A DNA stretch of 64,000 nucleotides from contig NZ_BSTQ01000006.1 of the NCBI RefSeq assembly GCF_030269605.1, forward strand, positions 1 to 64,000. Reading direction: 5' to 3'. Shown here piece by piece: positions 10,580-20,042 of this stretch (within the stretch, counting starts at the first letter, position 1; the number at the start of each line of letters is the position of its first letter). The notes beneath the pieces are model-generated. The model saw only the letters and a program-made list of their open reading frames with translations. It did no database searches and had not been told where the DNA came from. Source of the stretch: Lentzea sp. NBRC 105346 (lineage in GTDB: Bacteria; Actinomycetota; Actinomycetes; Mycobacteriales; Pseudonocardiaceae). The position numbers and the translations under genes were made by a program.

Positions 10580-11080
10580 GTGAGATACCTGTTCTTCTGG
10601 GGCCATCGGCCCGAGCGCGACGGTAGTGCCGGCAAGGGGTGCCTGAGCCAGTGGTGGCCGGCACCGTTCGTTGTGGACGGTCTGACGTACGCGACCGCCG
10701 AGCACTACATGATGTGGGGCAAGGCGATGCTCTTCGGTGACACGGAGACTGCGGCCCGCGTGCTCGAGACGACGGATCCCAAGCAGGCCAAGGCCATCGG
10801 GCGCGAGGTGCGCGGGTTCGACGACGCGGTCTGGCAGCGGGAGCGGCTCGCCATCGTCGTGCGCGGGAACCTCGCCAAGTTCTCGCAGCACGAGGACCTG
10901 CGCCGGTTCCTGCTCGGCACCGGCGACCGCGTGCTCGTCGAGGCCAGCCCGCTCGACCGCGTGTGGGGCATCGGTCTCGCCGCCGACGACCCGCGCGCCC
11001 AGGACCCGGAGCAGTGGCAGGGCCTCAACCTGCTCGGCGCCGCGCTGACCGAGGTCCGGGCGTCTCTGTTGACGATGTAA
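10580..11080 (+). CDS. NADAR (YbiA/DUF1768) family protein
   Basis: About 166 residues from the GTG at 10580; an in-frame GTG at 10556 also exists. Motifs of the NADAR superfamily are present: LSQWWPAPFVVDGLTYATAE, then EHYMMWGKAMLFGD, then WGIGLAADDPRAQDPEQW, then GLNLLGAALTEVR. Known members hydrolyse N-glycosidic bonds in riboflavin precursors or remove ADP-ribose from guanine. The role here is not shown. Confidence 0.85.
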   Translation: MRYLFFWGHRPERDGSAGKGCLSQWWPAPFVVDGLTYATAEHYMMWGKAMLFGDTETAARVLETTDPKQAKAIGREVRGFDDAVWQRERLAIVVRGNLAKFSQHEDLRRFLLGTGDRVLVEASPLDRVWGIGLAADDPRAQDPEQWQGLNLLGAALTEVRASLLTM

Positions 11081-11134
11081 CGCGGCGGGTTTCACCAATG
11101 GTGTGACCGCGGCCACCGTTCCTAACGTCGTCGT

Positions 11135-11668
11135 ATGAAGCTACGACGGACCGCCGTGGCGCTGTTCGCGCTCGTCGCCGTGGTGCACGTGGTGCTGATC
11201 TTCGTGCACACGGCGCCGTTCCGGCTGCCGTTGCGCGCCGCGGCGAACTCCTACGCGGACCCGTACTTCCGGCAGGACTGGGGCCTCTTCGCGCCCGATC
11301 CGGGAACCGAGAACCAGGCCGTCGTCGCCCGGCTGGAGCTCGCGGACGGCACGATCACGCCATGGGTCGACCTGACCGCGGAGGACCTTGAGGCCGTCCG
11401 GCATTCGTTGCTGCCGGGGCAGGTTCCGCAGGTCCAGCTCGACTACGCCCTCGGGTACTACAACGACACGCACCGCGAGGGCGCGATTCCCGAGGACGCC
11501 CGCGCCACCGAGATCTACCTCGGCAACATCGTGCTGCACCGCCTGGCGCCCCGATATCCGACGCCCGCGGTCGCCGTGCAGGTGAAGGCGGTCTACACGC
11601 GGGTCGTGCTGTCCGGGGCTCCTCCGCCTTCGGAAGAGGTCGAGTTGCCGTGGTGGAGGGTGGGATGA
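11135..11668 (+). CDS. DUF5819 family membrane-anchored protein
   Basis: A 177-residue protein. One N-terminal transmembrane helix (VALFALVAVVHVVLIFVHTA) leads into an extracytoplasmic domain with YFRQDWGLFAPDP and NQAVVARLEL. It is followed with an ATGA overlap by an HTTM protein, and such pairs recur in actinobacteria. The arrangement resembles SdpA/SdpB pairs of Bacillus, a parallel in layout only. Confidence 0.75.
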   Translation: MKLRRTAVALFALVAVVHVVLIFVHTAPFRLPLRAAANSYADPYFRQDWGLFAPDPGTENQAVVARLELADGTITPWVDLTAEDLEAVRHSLLPGQVPQVQLDYALGYYNDTHREGAIPEDARATEIYLGNIVLHRLAPRYPTPAVAVQVKAVYTRVVLSGAPPPSEEVELPWWRVG

Positions 11669-12591
11669 GGGTCCTGGACCGCTTGTGTGAGCGACCGGTC
11701 GGGCTCTACGCCGCCGCTGCGTTGCGAATCGGCTGTGCCCTGCTCGTCCTGCTGCAGCTGGTGCGCGAGTTCCCCTCGCGGCGCGAGGCGTGGGGGCCGG
11801 CATCACCGTGGCCGCAGTACGTCCGCGGCACGTCCTACGATCGGTTCGGGCTGCTGGACCTGTCGTCCTCGATGCTGTACTTCGAGCTGTTCTACCTGGC
11901 CTCACTGCTGGTCTGCGCGCTGTTCGCGCTCGGCTGGCACCCCAGGCTCACGTCGGTGCTGTTCGCGCTCGTGGTGGTGTCGTTCAACTTCCGCGCGCCC
12001 ATGATGGTGCTCGGCGGGCAGCGGATGATCCAGCTGCTGGCCATCTACCTGATCTTCGCCGCTTGCGGTCAGGTGTGGTCGCTGCACCGGTCTTCCTTGC
12101 GGCCCTTGACGATCGCGCTGCACAACCTCGCGATGTTCGTCATCGCCGCCCAGGTGTGCACCGCCTACCTCTGGGCCGGTCTGTCCAAACTGGAGGGACC
12201 GACGTGGCGCGACGGCACGGCTCTCGGCTATGCGTTGCAGCTGTCGAATCTCCGGGTGTGGCCGGAGCTTTCGGATCTAGTGCGCTCCAACGGCCTGCTC
12301 GTGATGGTCGCCTCGTACGCCGCCGTGTTCGTGTCGGCGTCGTTCCCGTTCACGTTGTTTTCCCGCTGGCTCAAGTACCCCGCGCTGCTGATGCTGGTCT
12401 CGATGCATCTCGGCATCGCGGTGCTGATGGGGCTGCCGCAGTTCTCCGCGGCCATGATCGTGGCGGACTTCGTCTTCATCCCGGACCGGTTGTGGCAACG
12501 CGCCGGTGCGTGGGTTCGGCGGCGAACGGCCGAGGGCCCGGCGGACGAATCCACCGGGCCCTCGGTCAGATCAACGGATCACACGTCGTAG
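11665..12591 (+). CDS. HTTM domain membrane protein (vitamin K carboxylase-like fold)
   Basis: A 308-residue polytopic membrane protein with at least six hydrophobic helices. It carries HTTM-type features ([18 protein letters not shown] near the start, [20 protein letters not shown] in the middle, [20 protein letters not shown] later). The ATG at 11665 overlaps the DUF5819 stop (ATGA). Its 3' end overlaps the convergent glnA by 13 bases. Confidence 0.82.
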
Positions 12592-14646: not shown

Positions 14647-14901
14647 TCAGCAGCTCCCGGGCTCGGTGCTCTGGATACCGCTGACGCGGGTCTGCTCCGG
14701 GCGCACGCCCAGGTCGTTGCCGCCCTGGATGCCGCCGACGCGAGTCTGCTCCGAGTGCCTGCCCCCGTCGTAGCTCTTGAGGCTGATCGCGCGGGTCTGA
14801 GCGCAGTGGCGGGTGTCGTCGTCGCCGGCCAACGCGACCGCCCCGCCGGCAGTCAGCAGGGCCGCGGCGGCGACAACAACTCGGATCGTGATTTTGCGCA
14901 T
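14647..14901 (-). CDS. secreted small peptide A with QTRVxGIQ repeats
   Basis: An 84-residue precursor. The signal peptide ends in VALAG near residue 26 and leaves a mature chain of about 58 residues. The mature part has two copies of EQTRVxGIQ, a related AQTRAISL, and two cysteines (HC near its start and the final C). The signal region is close to that of peptide B (VVAAAALLTAGGAVALAG against VIVAAAALSVIGAGMALAG). It is the last gene of a minus-strand run of regulator and peptide genes. No known family recognised. Confidence 0.75.
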   Translation of the reverse strand: MRKITIRVVVAAAALLTAGGAVALAGDDDTRHCAQTRAISLKSYDGGRHSEQTRVGGIQGGNDLGVRPEQTRVSGIQSTEPGSC

Positions 14902-14948
14902 TGTTCGACTCTTTTCCGTTGCGTCTGGAGGTTTCCGGCGACAACGGA

Positions 14949-15001
14949 AAAGTATCTTTCGATACTGACCTGAGAAAATAGGTGAAACCCGCAGGTGTTA
15001 C
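14949..15001 (-). promoter_or_regulatory. conserved promoter element upstream of peptide A
   Basis: On the minus strand GTAACACCTGCGGGTTTCACC (15001-14981) is followed after exactly 26 bases by TACTTT (14954-14949), a plausible -10 box. The same layout occurs before peptides B and C. The placement fits an activator site centred near -44. Confidence 0.65.
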
Positions 15002-15047
15002 ACAGCGCGGGTGCGAGAGAAAACGCAGCGTTACGATATATGTGGTT

Positions 15048-15084
15048 GACGGTGCCTGCAACGACGAGGTGAGCAGGCACCGTC
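15048..15084 (-). terminator. hairpin downstream of peptide B
   Basis: A 12-bp perfect stem, GACGGTGCCTGC (15048-15059) pairing with GCAGGCACCGTC (15073-15084), lies just after the stop of peptide B. It separates B from the promoter element of A. Confidence 0.65.
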
Positions 15085-15095
15085 ATCGAGGTGCG

Positions 15096-15311
15096 TTAAC
15101 GCTCGGACGTGATGCCGTTCAGCCGGCCGCCCGCGACCGCGTTCGTGCGGTTGCCCTCGGGGTGGCCGGCGATGGCGACCATGTTCGCCCGGCCGCCCGC
15201 CGGGTGAACACCGGGCGCCTGCTGCTCCGACGCACCGGCCAGCGCCATGCCAGCACCGATCACGGACAGAGCAGCGGCGGCGACGATGACCGACTTCGTG
15301 AACGAACGCAT
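15096..15311 (-). CDS. secreted small peptide B
   Basis: A 71-residue precursor with a clear signal peptide ending MALAG near residue 26. The short mature chain is rich in Gly, Asn and Ala and lacks Cys. It ends RTNAVAGGRLNGITSER, in which GRLNGI matches the R-V/L-x-G-I/V motif of peptides A and C. It lies downstream of the first regulator gene and has its own conserved promoter element. No known family recognised. Confidence 0.7.
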   Translation of the reverse strand: MRSFTKSVIVAAAALSVIGAGMALAGASEQQAPGVHPAGGRANMVAIAGHPEGNRTNAVAGGRLNGITSER

Positions 15312-15369
15312 GCCAGAACTCGCTTTCGTTGATTTTCAGCTTGGCTGAAGAGAATTCTTCGTTGAACTG

Positions 15370-15421
15370 AAGGTAGCGAGATCGGCCGTTTCGTAGTCAG
15401 TGGTGAAACCCGCAGCGTTGC
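15370..15421 (-). promoter_or_regulatory. conserved promoter element upstream of peptide B
   Basis: On the minus strand GCAACGCTGCGGGTTTCACC (15421-15402) is followed after exactly 26 bases by TACCTT (15375-15370). GCGGGTTTCACC is identical to the element before peptide A. It begins about 23 bases after the regulator stop codon. Confidence 0.68.
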
Positions 15422-15444
15422 GTTACGTGTCGCGACGCCGAAAT

Positions 15445-17409
15445 TCATGCGCCGACGGACATCGACCAGGCCACGACCTGCGTGCGGGTGCGCAGGCCGA
15501 GCTTCTCCCTGATCCGGGCCAGATGCGCCTCGACGGTTCGTTCGGACACACCCACGATGCGTGCGATCTGCCGGTTGGTGTCACCGCGCGCGACCAGTGC
15601 GGCTATTTCTCGTTCGCGAGCCGTCAACGGCGAGTCGGATTCGGTCGGCAGCAGCCATTCGTCGTGAACGGCATACGCGATGATCTGGTCGCGTTCGAGG
15701 CTCGCGCCGCCCGCGACGGCCGCGTGTGCGGTCGGTGCGTGAACCACCTGGCGGGCGAGGTCCTCGGCGGCCCGCACCATCGGCGCCCAGCGCGGGTCGT
15801 CGGTGGTGCGCAACGTCGTCGCGCCGCCGACCAGCCGCAGCGCGCGCTCCGGGCGTTCGGTCCGGGCGGCCACGACGGCGAGACCTTCCACGAGGTACGG
15901 CGTCTCGTAGACGTTGTCCGGCGCGGAACGCAGGCCCTCGGTGAACAGGCTCTCCGCCCGCGCGAGGTCGCCGCGCAGCACGGCGACGGTGCCCGCCGTG
16001 TGCAGCAACGCGGGCAGCTTCGGCGGCTCGGCGTACAGGCGGTAGATCGGCAGCGCGCGGTTGACCAGCTCGTCGGCGAGCTCCCGGTCGCCGTCCTGCA
16101 GCACCGCCCACGCCAGGTTGTGCAGGCAGGTCGCCTTGTCCATGGGCGCGTCGAGCTGGTCGAGGCACACCTCGTAGGTGGCGCGCGCGGACGCGAGCTC
16201 ACCGCGGGCGAGGTGCACGGCGGCGAGCACGTTCAAGGACCGGCCGAGCAGGTGACGTTCGCCGGTCGACACCGCCACCTCGACCGCGCGTTCGGCGAGC
16301 ACGAGCGCCTCGTCGCGGTCGCCGTCGGCGCTGGCGAGCCAGCCCGCGTGGGTCAACGCGACGCACCGGTCGTGCGGGTCGGCGTCCGCGTGGTCGAGCG
16401 TGTCCTTCAGCAACGTCAGGCCCCGAGCCGTCTCGCCGTTGATCCACAAGCAGATAGCCAGGGTGGTGACGAGCGGGAGCACCGGACGGCCCAGCCGCGC
16501 GGCGGAGTCGGCCGCGAACTCCAGCAGGTCCACCAGGCCGATCAGCTGTTCGTGCCGGCCCGCCGGCGTGAACACCGGTTCGGTGAACTCGCGCGCGATG
16601 ACGCTCAGTCCGTGCACCATCCGCAGCTCGGTGACGGCCACCTCGCCCGCCGCGGCGAGACGTTCCCGCGCGTACTCCCGGATCGGCGCCAGCAGCCGGT
16701 ACCGGCCGTCGTCCGCGACCACCAACGACTTCGCGACCAGCGCGGCGACCGTGGCCGCGCAGCGCGTCGGGTCGAGATCGCACACCGCACCCGCGGTGCG
16801 CAGGTCGAACCAGCCCGGCAGCATGGCCAGCGTCCGGAACACCCGTCGTTCCCGCGGGGTCAGGCCGTCGTGACCGCGGTCGATCGCCGCACGCAGGCGT
16901 TGATCATCGAGCACCGCGGGCAGGAGCTCGGCGGGGGAGGGCCGGAGCCGCGCCGCCGCTTCGATCGCGAGCGGCAACCCGTCCAGTTGCGCGCAGATCC
17001 GCTCGGCGACGTCGGGGGCGGTGTCGTGCCGGAAGAGCGCCACGGCGTCGGCCGGTGGGAGCGGGCCGACCGGGAAACGGACCTCGCCGGGCACGAGCAA
17101 CGCCTCGCGGCCGGTCGCGACGATCCGCACGTTCGGGCATTGGGTGAGCAGCTCGGTCGCCAGCCGGGCGTACTCGTCGATGTCCTGCTCGCACCCGTCG
17201 AGCAGCACGACACATCGGCGCTCGCCGATCGCCTCGATGTCGAGATCGGCGACGGGTACGGGGCGCTGCCGGGAGAGCAGCTCGGCCGCGAGGCGGCTCT
17301 TGCCGACGCCCGGCGGTCCGACCAACGTGACAAGACGGTCCTTGCGTAACAGCCTGCGTAGCTCGACGAGTTCGTCAGCGCGTCCGGCGAAACCGCAGTT
17401 CGAACACAT
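15445..17409 (-). CDS. STAND-type LuxR family regulator 1 (AAA/NB-ARC, TPR-like, LuxR HTH)
   Basis: A 654-residue protein. An NTPase domain comes first (FAGRADELVELRRLL, Walker A VGPPGVGKSRLA near residues 30-41, Walker B CVVLLDGCEQD), then a long helical TPR-like sensor region. A LuxR/GerE helix-turn-helix ends it (LTAREREIAALVARGDTNRQ, VSERTVEAHLARIREKLGL). The ATG at 17409 follows AAAGG. It is paralogous to the gene at 17937-20042, but its N-terminus keeps only MCSNCG of the zinc-finger-like segment seen there. It probably senses a ligand and activates the neighbouring peptide genes. Confidence 0.88.
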   Translation of the reverse strand: MCSNCGFAGRADELVELRRLLRKDRLVTLVGPPGVGKSRLAAELLSRQRPVPVADLDIEAIGERRCVVLLDGCEQDIDEYARLATELLTQCPNVRIVATGREALLVPGEVRFPVGPLPPADAVALFRHDTAPDVAERICAQLDGLPLAIEAAARLRPSPAELLPAVLDDQRLRAAIDRGHDGLTPRERRVFRTLAMLPGWFDLRTAGAVCDLDPTRCAATVAALVAKSLVVADDGRYRLLAPIREYARERLAAAGEVAVTELRMVHGLSVIAREFTEPVFTPAGRHEQLIGLVDLLEFAADSAARLGRPVLPLVTTLAICLWINGETARGLTLLKDTLDHADADPHDRCVALTHAGWLASADGDRDEALVLAERAVEVAVSTGERHLLGRSLNVLAAVHLARGELASARATYEVCLDQLDAPMDKATCLHNLAWAVLQDGDRELADELVNRALPIYRLYAEPPKLPALLHTAGTVAVLRGDLARAESLFTEGLRSAPDNVYETPYLVEGLAVVAARTERPERALRLVGGATTLRTTDDPRWAPMVRAAEDLARQVVHAPTAHAAVAGGASLERDQIIAYAVHDEWLLPTESDSPLTAREREIAALVARGDTNRQIARIVGVSERTVEAHLARIREKLGLRTRTQVVAWSMSVGA

Positions 17410-17501
17410 AGGCAGGCCTTTCGGTCGACCTTGCGTGTAAACGGCGGCGTCCGCTGAAGATAGCGAGGGAATTACTAGGTATCGCGTTAGTTCCGCCAAA
17501 T

Positions 17502-17529
17502 CGCGGAAGGCCGTTGCCGGCCTTCCGCG
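17502..17529 (-). terminator. hairpin downstream of peptide C
   Basis: An 11-bp perfect stem (CGCGGAAGGCC at 17502-17512 with GGCCTTCCGCG at 17519-17529) lies ten bases after the peptide C stop codon and ahead of regulator 1. It probably limits read-through. Confidence 0.7.
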
Positions 17530-17538
17530 GAAAATGGT

Positions 17539-17850
17539 TCAGCTGACGCCGCCCAAGCGGTTGTCCGGACGGTCACCGGTGACACCCATGACGCGGCTGT
17601 CCGGGCGGTCACCGGTCACGCCCATGACCCGGCTGTCCGGGCGGTCACCGGTCACGCCCATGACCCGGCTGTCCGGGCGGACGTCCTGGGCGGTGCCGCC
17701 GCGACCGTCCGGCTCGACGCTCTGGATTCCGCAGTGCTTGCGGCCGGGGATCGGGCACCACTGCGAGTCGGCCGAATCGGCCAGCGCGATACCGCCGCCG
17801 CTGAGGATGAACAACGCGCCGGTCGCGACAATGATCTTCTTGAGGTTCAT
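17539..17850 (-). CDS. secreted small peptide C with tandem 12-residue repeats
   Basis: A 103-residue precursor. The signal peptide is MNLKKIIVATGALFILSGGG followed by IALAD. A segment with two cysteines follows (WCPIPGRKHCGIQSVEP). Then come three repeats of DRPDSRVMGVTG and a final RPDNRLGGVS. GIQSVEP recalls GIQSTEP of peptide A. The ribosome-binding region GACCGAAAAGAGCTGCC resembles that of both regulator genes. It is probably an exported signal or structural peptide. No known family recognised. Confidence 0.75.
   Translation of the reverse strand: MNLKKIIVATGALFILSGGGIALADSADSQWCPIPGRKHCGIQSVEPDGRGGTAQDVRPDSRVMGVTGDRPDSRVMGVTGDRPDSRVMGVTGDRPDNRLGGVS
17570..17677 (-). repeat. three tandem 36-bp repeats inside peptide C
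   Basis: Units at 17570-17605, 17606-17641 and 17642-17677. The last two are identical and the first differs at a few positions. Each encodes one 12-residue repeat in frame. A degenerate fourth unit lies at the 3' end of the gene. The identity suggests recent expansion. Confidence 0.9.
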
Positions 17851-17888
17851 GGCAGCTCTTTTCGGTCGAGAATGTCGCTTGCGGTGAG

Positions 17889-17940
17889 AACGTTGCCATC
17901 CGGTGACTTACCCGAATATTCGCAAAACCCGCTGCGTTAC
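17889..17940 (-). promoter_or_regulatory. conserved promoter element upstream of peptide C
   Basis: On the minus strand GTAACGCAGCGGGTTTTGCG (17940-17921) is followed after exactly 26 bases by AACGTT (17894-17889). The element overlaps the stop codon of regulator 2. It matches the elements of peptides A and B through GCGGGTTT and the preceding AAC, with a weaker -10 box. Confidence 0.55.
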
Positions 17941-20042
17941 GCACTGGCGGAGAGCAGCCAGGCCGCCACCTGCGTTCGGGTCCGCAATCCGAGCTTCTCC
18001 CTGATTCGGGCCAAATGCGCCTCGATCGTGCGTTCCGAGAGTCGTACGACGCGCGCGATCTGCCGGTTGGTGTCCCCGCGCGCGACCAGCGCCGCGATCT
18101 GCCGTTCCCGCGGCGTCAGCGGTGAGTTCTCCGTTCCCTCCGGCCATTCGCCGTCGCGCGCGTACCTGATGACCCGGTCGCGGTCGAGCCGGGCGCCCGC
18201 GGCGAGGGCAGCGCGGGATTCCGCGTCGGGCAGCTGGCCTCGCGCCAGCCGGTCGGCGGCACGGACGAGCTGCCGCCAGCCGGGGTTCTGGCCGGTGGAC
18301 AGCGGGCCGCGCAGCGCCGATCCGGCGCCGATGAGCCGCAGTGCGCGTTCGGGGTCGTCGTCCCGGGCCGCGACGATCGCCAGTCCTTCGACGAGAAACG
18401 GCAGGTCGTGCGCGTTGTCGGGTGCGATGCGCAGAGCGTCCAGGAAGAGCGCCTCGGCCCTGCCGACGTCGCCTCGGTGCAACGCGATCGTGCCCGCGGT
18501 GTGCAGGATCGCGGGCAGCTTCGCCGGTTCGGCGTACAGCCAGTACACCGGCAGCGCCCGGTTCACCAGCTCGTCGGCGAGCGCGGCGTCACCGCCCTGC
18601 AGCACCGCCCACGCGAGGTGGTGCGTGCAGGTCGCGCGATCGAGCGGATCGTCGAGCACGTCCAGGCAATCCGTGTAGGTCGCGTGGGCACGGGCGAAGT
18701 CGCCGCGCGAGAGGTGCACGCCGGCCAGCGCGCTGAGCGCCCGGCCGATCTGCGCCCGGTCATCGCCGGCCGCGAGGACGGCCGCTTCGGTGAGGGCGAG
18801 GGCCTCCTCGTGATCACCTTCCACGCACGCCAGCCAGCCCGCGTGCGTGAGCGCGAGGCAGCGGTCCGCCTCCGGCGCGTCACCACGCGCGAGCGTCTCG
18901 TTCAGCAGGCGCCGTCCCTCGGCGGTGTGCCCCTGGCTCCACCAGTAGAGCGACGGGGTCGTCGCGATCGGCAGGTCGCAGCGGCCGTCGCCGACCGCGG
19001 CCGGCGTGAACACCGGGCCGGTGACCTCACCCAGCCACGCCACGACCCGGTCCTGCGCCGCCTCCCGCTCGCCCGCCTCGACGAGCCGTTCGTGCGCGTA
19101 CAGCCGGATCGACTCCAGCTGGTGATAGCGGCCGTCGCCCGCGACGACCAGCGACTTCGCCACCAGCGACGTCACCAGCACGGCGAGCCGGGCCGCGTCG
19201 ATCTCGCAGATCGCGCTCGCCGTGGCGAGGTCGAACCCGCCGGGCAGCACGGAAAGCGTGCGGAATACGCGCTGCTCGGCCGGGTCGAGCGAGCGGTAGC
19301 TCCACTCGATCGCGGCCCGCAGGCTGCGGTGCCGCGACGCGCACGTGCGGCCGCCGACGGTCAACAGGTCGAGCCGCTGGTCGAGCCGGGCCAGGATCTC
19401 CGCCGGCGGCAACGCGGGCACGAGCCGCGCGGCCAGCTCGATCGCGAGCGGCAGCCGGTCCAGCCGCGTGCAGATCCGGTCGACGACCTCCGACCGTCCG
19501 ACATCGCCCTGCGCGCGGTCGGAGAACAACGTCGCTGCCGCGTCCGGCCGTAGTGGAGGCACCCCGAACACGGTCTCGCCGGGCACCAGCAGGGCCTCGC
19601 GGCTCGTCGCGAGGATGCGCAGACCGGGACAGCGGCCCAGCAGCGTCTCGGCGAGCCGGGCGCACGCGTCGATGTCGTGCTCGCAGTTGTCCAGCAACAG
19701 CAAGCACTTCCCTTCGCCGACCTCGTCCGCGATCTCGGCCGGGCCGTACTTCGCGACGTCGACGAGGCGCACCTCGGGCTGTCGCGCCACGAGCTCGAGC
19801 GCCAGCCGCGTCTTCCCGGCGCCGGCGGGACCGACGAGGGTGAGCAGCCGGACGCGGCGCAGCAGCTTGCCGAGCTCGGCGAGCTCGTCGTCGCGGCCGA
19901 CGAAGCTGTCCAAAGTGGCTGGTGGTGTCAAACGCGTCGCAGGGGCGGTCTCTCTGCTGCGACTGCGGTAGGCGCGCTGGCGGCAGGCGTTGGAGCAGTA
20001 GCGGGCACGGCCGTTGGCTGCCGCACCGCAGACCGAGCACAT
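17937..20042 (-). CDS. STAND-type LuxR family regulator 2 with N-terminal zinc-finger-like segment
   Basis: A 701-residue protein. The N-terminus (CSVCG, then RARYCSNACRQRAYRSR) has four cysteines spaced as in a small zinc finger. The NTPase follows (FVGRDDELAELGKLL, Walker A VGPAGAGKTRLA near residues 72-83, Walker B CLLLLDNCEHD). Then come a TPR-like region and a LuxR helix-turn-helix (LTPRERQIAALVARGDTNRQ, LSERTIEAHLARIREKLGL). Start ATG 20042 follows GAAGGG. It is paralogous to regulator 1, including the leader sequence, and lies immediately upstream of peptide C. Confidence 0.9.
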   Translation of the reverse strand: MCSVCGAAANGRARYCSNACRQRAYRSRSRETAPATRLTPPATLDSFVGRDDELAELGKLLRRVRLLTLVGPAGAGKTRLALELVARQPEVRLVDVAKYGPAEIADEVGEGKCLLLLDNCEHDIDACARLAETLLGRCPGLRILATSREALLVPGETVFGVPPLRPDAAATLFSDRAQGDVGRSEVVDRICTRLDRLPLAIELAARLVPALPPAEILARLDQRLDLLTVGGRTCASRHRSLRAAIEWSYRSLDPAEQRVFRTLSVLPGGFDLATASAICEIDAARLAVLVTSLVAKSLVVAGDGRYHQLESIRLYAHERLVEAGEREAAQDRVVAWLGEVTGPVFTPAAVGDGRCDLPIATTPSLYWWSQGHTAEGRRLLNETLARGDAPEADRCLALTHAGWLACVEGDHEEALALTEAAVLAAGDDRAQIGRALSALAGVHLSRGDFARAHATYTDCLDVLDDPLDRATCTHHLAWAVLQGGDAALADELVNRALPVYWLYAEPAKLPAILHTAGTIALHRGDVGRAEALFLDALRIAPDNAHDLPFLVEGLAIVAARDDDPERALRLIGAGSALRGPLSTGQNPGWRQLVRAADRLARGQLPDAESRAALAAGARLDRDRVIRYARDGEWPEGTENSPLTPRERQIAALVARGDTNRQIARVVRLSERTIEAHLARIREKLGLRTRTQVAAWLLSASA

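Follow-up and report, generated by a model that had tools for sequence, protein, structure and literature searches.

What are three tiny secreted peptides doing beside two large transcriptional regulators? The question is raised by a locus of Lentzea sp. NBRC 105346, within the stretch of 64,000 nucleotides analysed here (positions 1 to 64,000 of contig NZ_BSTQ01000006.1; the window). A preliminary description of this DNA had placed the five genes on the minus strand in the order regulator 2, peptide C, regulator 1, peptide B, peptide A, and both order and coordinates proved correct on re-reading of the locus. Beyond what was described then, a promoter element precedes each peptide gene, and a further copy precedes an operon for a DUF5819 protein and an HTTM membrane protein. 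With this operon, the likely meaning of the locus shifts from a bare pairing of signal and regulator to a module for export and maturation. Our reading, a tentative one to which we give slightly less than an even chance, is that of a species-specific module for regulated exported repeat peptides, matured by the DUF5819-HTTM pair. The genes concerned, with protein lengths in amino acids (aa), are these:

11135..11668, plus strand: DUF5819 protein, 177 aa; Pfam PF19136, E 3.1e-29
11665..12591, plus strand: HTTM membrane protein, 308 aa; PF05090, E 2.1e-9; TIGR04033 (SdpB family), E 2.2e-13, below the curated cut-off
14647..14901, minus strand: peptide A, 84 aa; signal peptide with an ALA cleavage site (by eye), 59-aa hydrophilic mature part with RVGGI and RVSGI
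15096..15311, minus strand: peptide B, 71 aa; signal peptide, 46-aa mature part with RLNGI
15445..17409, minus strand: regulator 1; STAND-type ATPase, TPR, C-terminal LuxR/GerE helix-turn-helix (HTH), short Cys N-terminus
17539..17850, minus strand: peptide C, 103 aa; signal peptide, 79-aa mature part of four tandem units (RPDSRVMGVTGD three times, then RPDNRLGGVS)
17937..20042, minus strand: regulator 2; architecture as regulator 1, but with a full CxxC...CxxxC N-terminus

Exported peptides and a shared promoter element

The three peptides match no protein family above cut-off in family scans, and they look like real coding genes because their third-position GC (0.87-0.90) is far above that at the second position (0.54-0.59). 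Cleavable signal peptides followed by short mature parts are present in all three, as had been described, and export of the predicted products is supported. In every pairwise comparison the signal peptides resemble one another (0 of 2000 shuffles each), while the mature parts are weakly alike, the pairwise score being reached by 48, 92 and 130 of 2000 shuffles. The motif R[VL]xG[IV], also pointed out earlier, occurs twice in A, once in B and four times in C; in 10,000 shuffles of the three peptides together, the mean was 0.04 and the maximum 2, against the seven copies observed. Since the mature sequences are otherwise weakly alike, their kinship rests on this motif and on the repeated order of regulator and peptide, in which C lies directly downstream of regulator 2 and B directly downstream of regulator 1. 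All three mature parts are hydrophilic, with grand average of hydropathy (GRAVY) values of -1.03, -0.56 and -0.87.

Comparison of five upstream regions yielded an element, written GTAACNC, 0-6 bases, GCGGGTTT, that precedes the three peptide genes, one copy each. Exact matches were then sought in 24 genomes of the genus, the host and 23 congeners (here and in the other genome sets, one genome per species). The 9.4-Mb host genome holds 4 copies, all inside the window, and the fourth, which was not used in building the pattern, precedes the DUF5819-HTTM operon 3.5 kb away:

14985..15001, minus strand: element of A (GTAACACCTGCGGGTTT); -10-like TACTTT at 14949-14954, 38 bp from the first base of GCGGG
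15406..15426, minus strand: element of B (GTAACGCAACGCTGCGGGTTT); -10-like TACCTT at 15370-15375
17925..17940, minus strand: element of C (GTAACGCAGCGGGTTT), overlapping the regulator 2 stop codon; -10-like AACGTT at 17889-17894
11077..11092, plus strand: fourth element (GTAACGCGGCGGGTTT), overlapping the NADAR stop codon; -10-like TAACGT at 11123-11128, six bases before the DUF5819 ATG

The spacing between element and -10-like hexamer is 38 bp in 4 of 4 copies; in 20,000 shuffles of the downstream parts, three TANNNT plus four NANNNT at any one common offset never occurred. The fourth element continues with CACC, as do those of A and B, and the predicted start site of its unit falls on the DUF5819 ATG, a leaderless-type arrangement. 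The stop codon of the preceding gene lies inside the element in two of the four cases, which may be chance. Among the congeners, three of 23 carry one copy each (L107, L108 and L110), with no match to module proteins within 1.5 kb on either side, and a reversed-pattern control gave 0 matches in the host and 17 across the 24 genomes. Co-regulation of A, B, C and DUF5819-HTTM, as predicted from sequence, is well supported. Because of this common promoter and of their joint absence from relatives (see below), the peptides and the DUF5819-HTTM pair likely form one module.

The DUF5819-HTTM pair and its partners

The two genes of the operon are tightly joined, with the HTTM start overlapping the DUF5819 stop. 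DUF5819 itself is patchily distributed: with a limit of E 1e-5 it was found in 16 of the 390 family genomes (the host included, as the sole member of its genus) and, with a limit of 1e-9, in 47 of 394 class genomes, 39 of these from one genus (g71, apparently Streptomyces). Thirty-five DUF5819 stretches were taken and five set aside before counting, one because its contig ends just past DUF5819 (L156) and four because DUF5819 was weak or partial and HTTM matches lay farther off (L161-L164). In each of the other 30, an HTTM match stands beside DUF5819. In 10 of these 30 loci, the gene immediately upstream of DUF5819 encodes a secreted repeat protein; seven were found by a script requiring that the nearest upstream gene be on the same strand, secreted-like and carry a 5-mer or longer repeated three times, and three (L150, L208 and L209) found by hand and counted apart, having missed the script through gene calling or the signal filter. 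As background, 40 other stretches yielded one such case among 208 same-strand gene pairs.

Nine of the partner proteins were scanned, giving six with Ice_binding (PF11999), two with DUF6801 and one with Collagen just under cut-off; the partner in L208 was read by eye. In seven loci (L150, L194, L196, L203, L206, L208 and L209), which span two families of genomes, DUF5819 and then HTTM follow a gene for an Ice_binding-like secreted protein whose tail is long and of low complexity. In a tree, the DUF5819-HTTM pair of the window groups, on a long branch, with these seven (support 86/74), and a secreted repeat partner is present in 7 of 7 loci of that branch. Because of these neighbours of DUF5819-HTTM elsewhere, exported repeat sequences are likely to be the substrate of the pair. 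Together with the link to secreted repeats in a third of the 30 loci, the HTTM pairing suggests what this widespread pair may do, in a form open to test.

Of the loci in other genera, L152 (6032-12378) comes closest to the arrangement here: a STAND-LuxR gene, a DUF6801 secreted protein with GGTDEGG repeats, DUF5819 and HTTM stand in a row on one strand. In L153, a STAND-LuxR gene lies downstream of the pair on the other strand. Such regulators are numerous per genome, and so their presence in 2 of 15 family stretches is, by a rough estimate, near background; in 20 class-wide stretches, no match to regulator 2 was found at E up to 1e-3.

What might such a pair do? One parallel is the SDP system of Bacillus subtilis (sdpABC-sdpIR), in which an exported peptide is accompanied by two proteins for its maturation; SDP maturation is reported to require sdpA and sdpB (PMC13343845, PMC5719810). 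The HTTM protein matches the SdpB model, albeit below its cut-off, and the DUF5819 protein has a hydrophobic N-terminus. The regulators here, however, are of the STAND-LuxR type, and no SdpI- or SdpR-like genes were recognised in the locus, though no search was aimed at them.

A second parallel emerged from a profile of 12 HTTM relatives, which was compared with a set of PDB sequences. All eight sequences listed at E up to 1 are vitamin K-dependent gamma-carboxylase (GGCX), an enzyme that acts on proteins during secretion; the similarity is weak (E 1.7e-4) and confined to the membrane part. The invariant HTTM lysine (AGxxKxxGxxW) aligns with the second Lys of a KK in GGCX, which is residue 218 by hand counting that assumes native numbering in the longer chains, whose match starts 31 residues later. 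Lys218 is reported to initiate carboxylation, and His160 is named as essential (PMC9146348). No Glu is common to the repeats of all three peptides. In the literature collection searched, there was no paper naming DUF5819, none linking HTTM with SdpB/SdpC or SdpB with gamma-carboxylase, and none on a bacterial HTTM tied to vitamin K-dependent carboxylase. A far bolder possibility, to which we give very little credence, is that of a bacterial counterpart of vitamin K carboxylation. A quinone-using DUF5819-HTTM pair with the Lys218 equivalent would modify acidic residues of the repeats, and the STAND-TPR-LuxR proteins would be receptors that sense the finished peptides and turn on both substrate and enzyme. 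On this view, secreted repeat proteins across many actinobacteria would be further substrates of the pair.

The regulators and the weighing of explanations

The regulators are 654 and 701 aa long and match GerE (E 1.6e-18 and 3.7e-16) and TPR_12 (5.6e-17 and 2.5e-11) above cut-off; AAA_16 matches of 31.8 and 26.7 bits fall just below and well below the cut-off of 32.6. Regulator 1 starts at 17409 from an ATG with a leader, or alternatively at 17499 from an upstream TTG. The two proteins had been called paralogous, leaders included, and this holds: they are 60% identical over 626 aligned residues and 82% identical in the last 65, which contain the DNA-binding domain, and GACCGAA plus a purine-rich site precedes both ATGs and also that of peptide C. 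The HTHs of other paralogues, in 20 fetched neighbourhoods (15 of the host genome and 5 of congeners), reach at most 59% identity to that of regulator 2, and matches to such paralogues number dozens in the host genome. Outside that genome, the best relative among the congeners and the family genomes (2 candidates scored per family genome) is 48% identical, and a scan of genome contigs gave one locus at 40%. In domain order (ATPase, TPR, C-terminal GerE HTH) the proteins resemble MalT-like STAND-LuxR regulators; they differ in scoring 35 and 47 bits against the MalT model, with its cut-off of 537, and in the Cys-rich N-terminus of regulator 2. The CxxC...CxxxC finger there is full (window 19960-20042), and many paralogues match from residue 2; regulator 1 (17390-17409) retains the first CxxC alone. 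A role in anti-phage defence was considered and rejected, the PADLOC matches being confined to the HTH.

From gene position and the HTH comparison only, we infer that the two regulators are activators of the module. Since their HTH domains are so much alike, both would bind the one element. A ligand meeting the TPR/STAND sensor would then lead the regulators to activate the peptide genes and the membrane pair jointly, and the more divergent sensor parts (60% identity overall) may let two inputs drive one output. DUF5819-HTTM, like SdpA/SdpB, would act at the membrane on the exported peptides, most probably on the repeats, which would be modified or processed before the peptide is released or attached to the cell surface. 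One member of this membrane pair resembles both a toxin-maturation protein and the vitamin K carboxylase, and similar pairs adjoin secreted repeat proteins elsewhere. The locus is a compact test case, with small candidate substrates, a putative enzyme pair and candidate regulators, and its defined promoter element predicts a regulon. The preliminary proposal that the peptides are exported and regulator-controlled, possibly with feedback, stands in part. By sequence, the peptides are predicted to be exported; they have a promoter element in common and adjoin two regulators with like HTHs. Control by these regulators through that element, and any feedback loop, are conjectural.

Several results weigh against the module as we read it. 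The HTTM protein scores 50.4 bits against TIGR04033, for which the curated cut-off is 178.4, and in NCBIfam the DUF5819 protein has no hit at E up to 1, not even to SdpA. Twenty of the 30 loci lack a secreted repeat partner (15 have their nearest upstream gene on the opposite strand; in 5 that gene is secreted-like but free of repeats), the partners elsewhere are large secreted proteins with Ice_binding or DUF6801 domains and not small peptides, and the grouping of the long branch of the window's pair is moderately supported. Recurrence of regulator and peptides together, which the preliminary description had put forward as a check, was found in none of 23 congeners or 390 family genomes (14 peptide and 2 regulator candidates scored per genome in the family scans), and no other genome was found with the whole set of peptides, regulators and DUF5819-HTTM. 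The upstream regions of both regulators are without the element, so that feedback on the regulators is not indicated. Exact copies alone were sought, so distant regulon members with degenerate copies are possible, and a looser form was not found in the 15 family DUF5819 stretches. Finally, the peptide C repeat has Asp where peptide A has Glu, which disfavours one common Glu chemistry.

Could the peptides instead be pheromones? In quorum sensing of the Rap-Phr/RRNPP kind, A-C would be exported, cut around (S/T/N/G)R(V/L)xG(V/I)(T/Q/S), re-imported and bound through the TPR of the neighbouring regulator, which would then drive more peptide. In favour of this, RRNPP pairs consist of an adjacent propeptide and TPR receptor (PMC10075063), and here C follows regulator 2 and B follows regulator 1, both regulators carry TPR repeats, and each peptide has 1, 2 or 4 copies of one short motif. 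The same paper, however, gives 250-500 aa as the receptor criterion and describes these systems for Firmicutes, another phylum, whereas the proteins here are larger and carry a STAND ATPase and a C-terminal LuxR HTH. Moreover, a simple pheromone would have no need of DUF5819-HTTM under the same element, and the arrangement does not recur in relatives. We consider this explanation unlikely. Papers joining STAND/LuxR regulators with secreted peptides in actinomycetes, or describing TPR-LuxR peptide signaling with oligopeptide permease in Streptomyces, were not found in a literature search.

The similarity of HTTM to the SdpB family, its operon with a second small protein and the co-regulated small exported peptides would also suit antimicrobial or cannibalism peptides, with A-C as toxins matured in SdpA/SdpB fashion and produced at times set by the regulators. 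The SDP toxin, however, is hydrophobic, while the repeats here are hydrophilic (mature GRAVY -0.56 to -1.03) and unlike a membrane-acting, SdpC-like product; no immunity gene was recognised among the genes read, though no search was aimed at one, and the partners in the sister branch are ice-binding-like repeat proteins. It is about as improbable, in our estimate, as the idea that A-C are structural repeats of the surface or matrix, which DUF5819-HTTM helps to attach when the regulators answer an envelope or nutrient cue. The latter accords with the repeat-bearing, hydrophilic sequences and with the sister branch's secreted Ice_binding proteins and their long low-complexity tails, but at 46-79 aa the mature parts are on the short side for a structural role and no sorting signal was seen by eye. 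Perhaps the peptides are simply chance neighbours: small secreted open reading frames (ORFs) that happen to adjoin two of the dozens of paralogous regulators, the element answering to another factor. Indeed, 0 of 20 paralogue neighbourhoods carry such peptides. What makes this quite improbable is that an element with exact spacing is common to four transcription units, that the gene sets flanking glnA-RDD occur here alone among the regions compared, and that the regulator-peptide order occurs twice.

Relatives and the glnA-RDD region

The order glnA, RDD, DUF4191 is kept in 20 congener regions, with NADAR on the glnA side in 18. At a threshold of E 1e-3, none of the 20 matches peptide B, regulator 2 or DUF5819. 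For peptides A and C and regulator 1, which that query did not include, the evidence is the RDD-DUF4191 gap: at 82-1329 bp in congeners, against 5762 bp here, it leaves no room for the 5.8-kb block. The NADAR-glnA gaps range from 403 to 5688 bp in congeners, so that both flanks of glnA-RDD vary in gene content, and these surroundings (gaps in L084-L105 and L114-L133) have the look of a local hot spot of gene gain. No 11-mers that might mark mobile-element ends are shared at the four block boundaries. One congener gave an HTTM-like match of 29 aa (L122, E 5e-4) at the glnA 3' end, which was set aside as similarity of the glnA terminator region.

Relatives of the peptides were sought with an A/B/C profile in the host genome, the 24 genus genomes (host included) and the 390 family genomes. 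Weak matches numbered two in the genus (E up to 0.01) and five in the family outside the host genome (E up to 0.001); among the seven, L078 is by eye an unrelated small secreted protein. Peptide C had no match among plasmids and peptide A none among phages, the combinations searched. Reading of the ORF lists of 21 loci (20 regions and one Streptomyces locus) revealed no repeat peptides beside paralogous regulators; of two small-ORF scans, the stricter recovered one of the three known peptides and the looser all three. At L064 (9187-9606) in the host genome, two STAND-LuxR paralogues flank a gene for a small lipoprotein-like product.

In congener L094 (G002), the RDD-DUF4191 gap holds, at about 1179-1501, the place of the peptide block here, a 44-aa ORF that looks secreted. 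It sits inside a longer GTG frame, its ATG is preceded by a purine-rich site, and it resembles A-C to a limited degree (Smith-Waterman scores 25, 33 and 29, without a control). Six other congeners (L084, L091, L093, L100, L103 and L104) have a related small protein gene on the RDD side, which we take to be DUF1330-like.

One further feature lies between peptides A and B:

15048..15084, minus strand: hairpin with a 12-bp perfect stem, 3' of peptide B

A hairpin with the same stem is also found past peptide A, within the 3' end of the RDD gene, where eight congeners displayed have imperfect stems (by eye). The like hairpins after B and past A suggest that the two peptides arose by local duplication with shared terminators, and convergence is a possible alternative.

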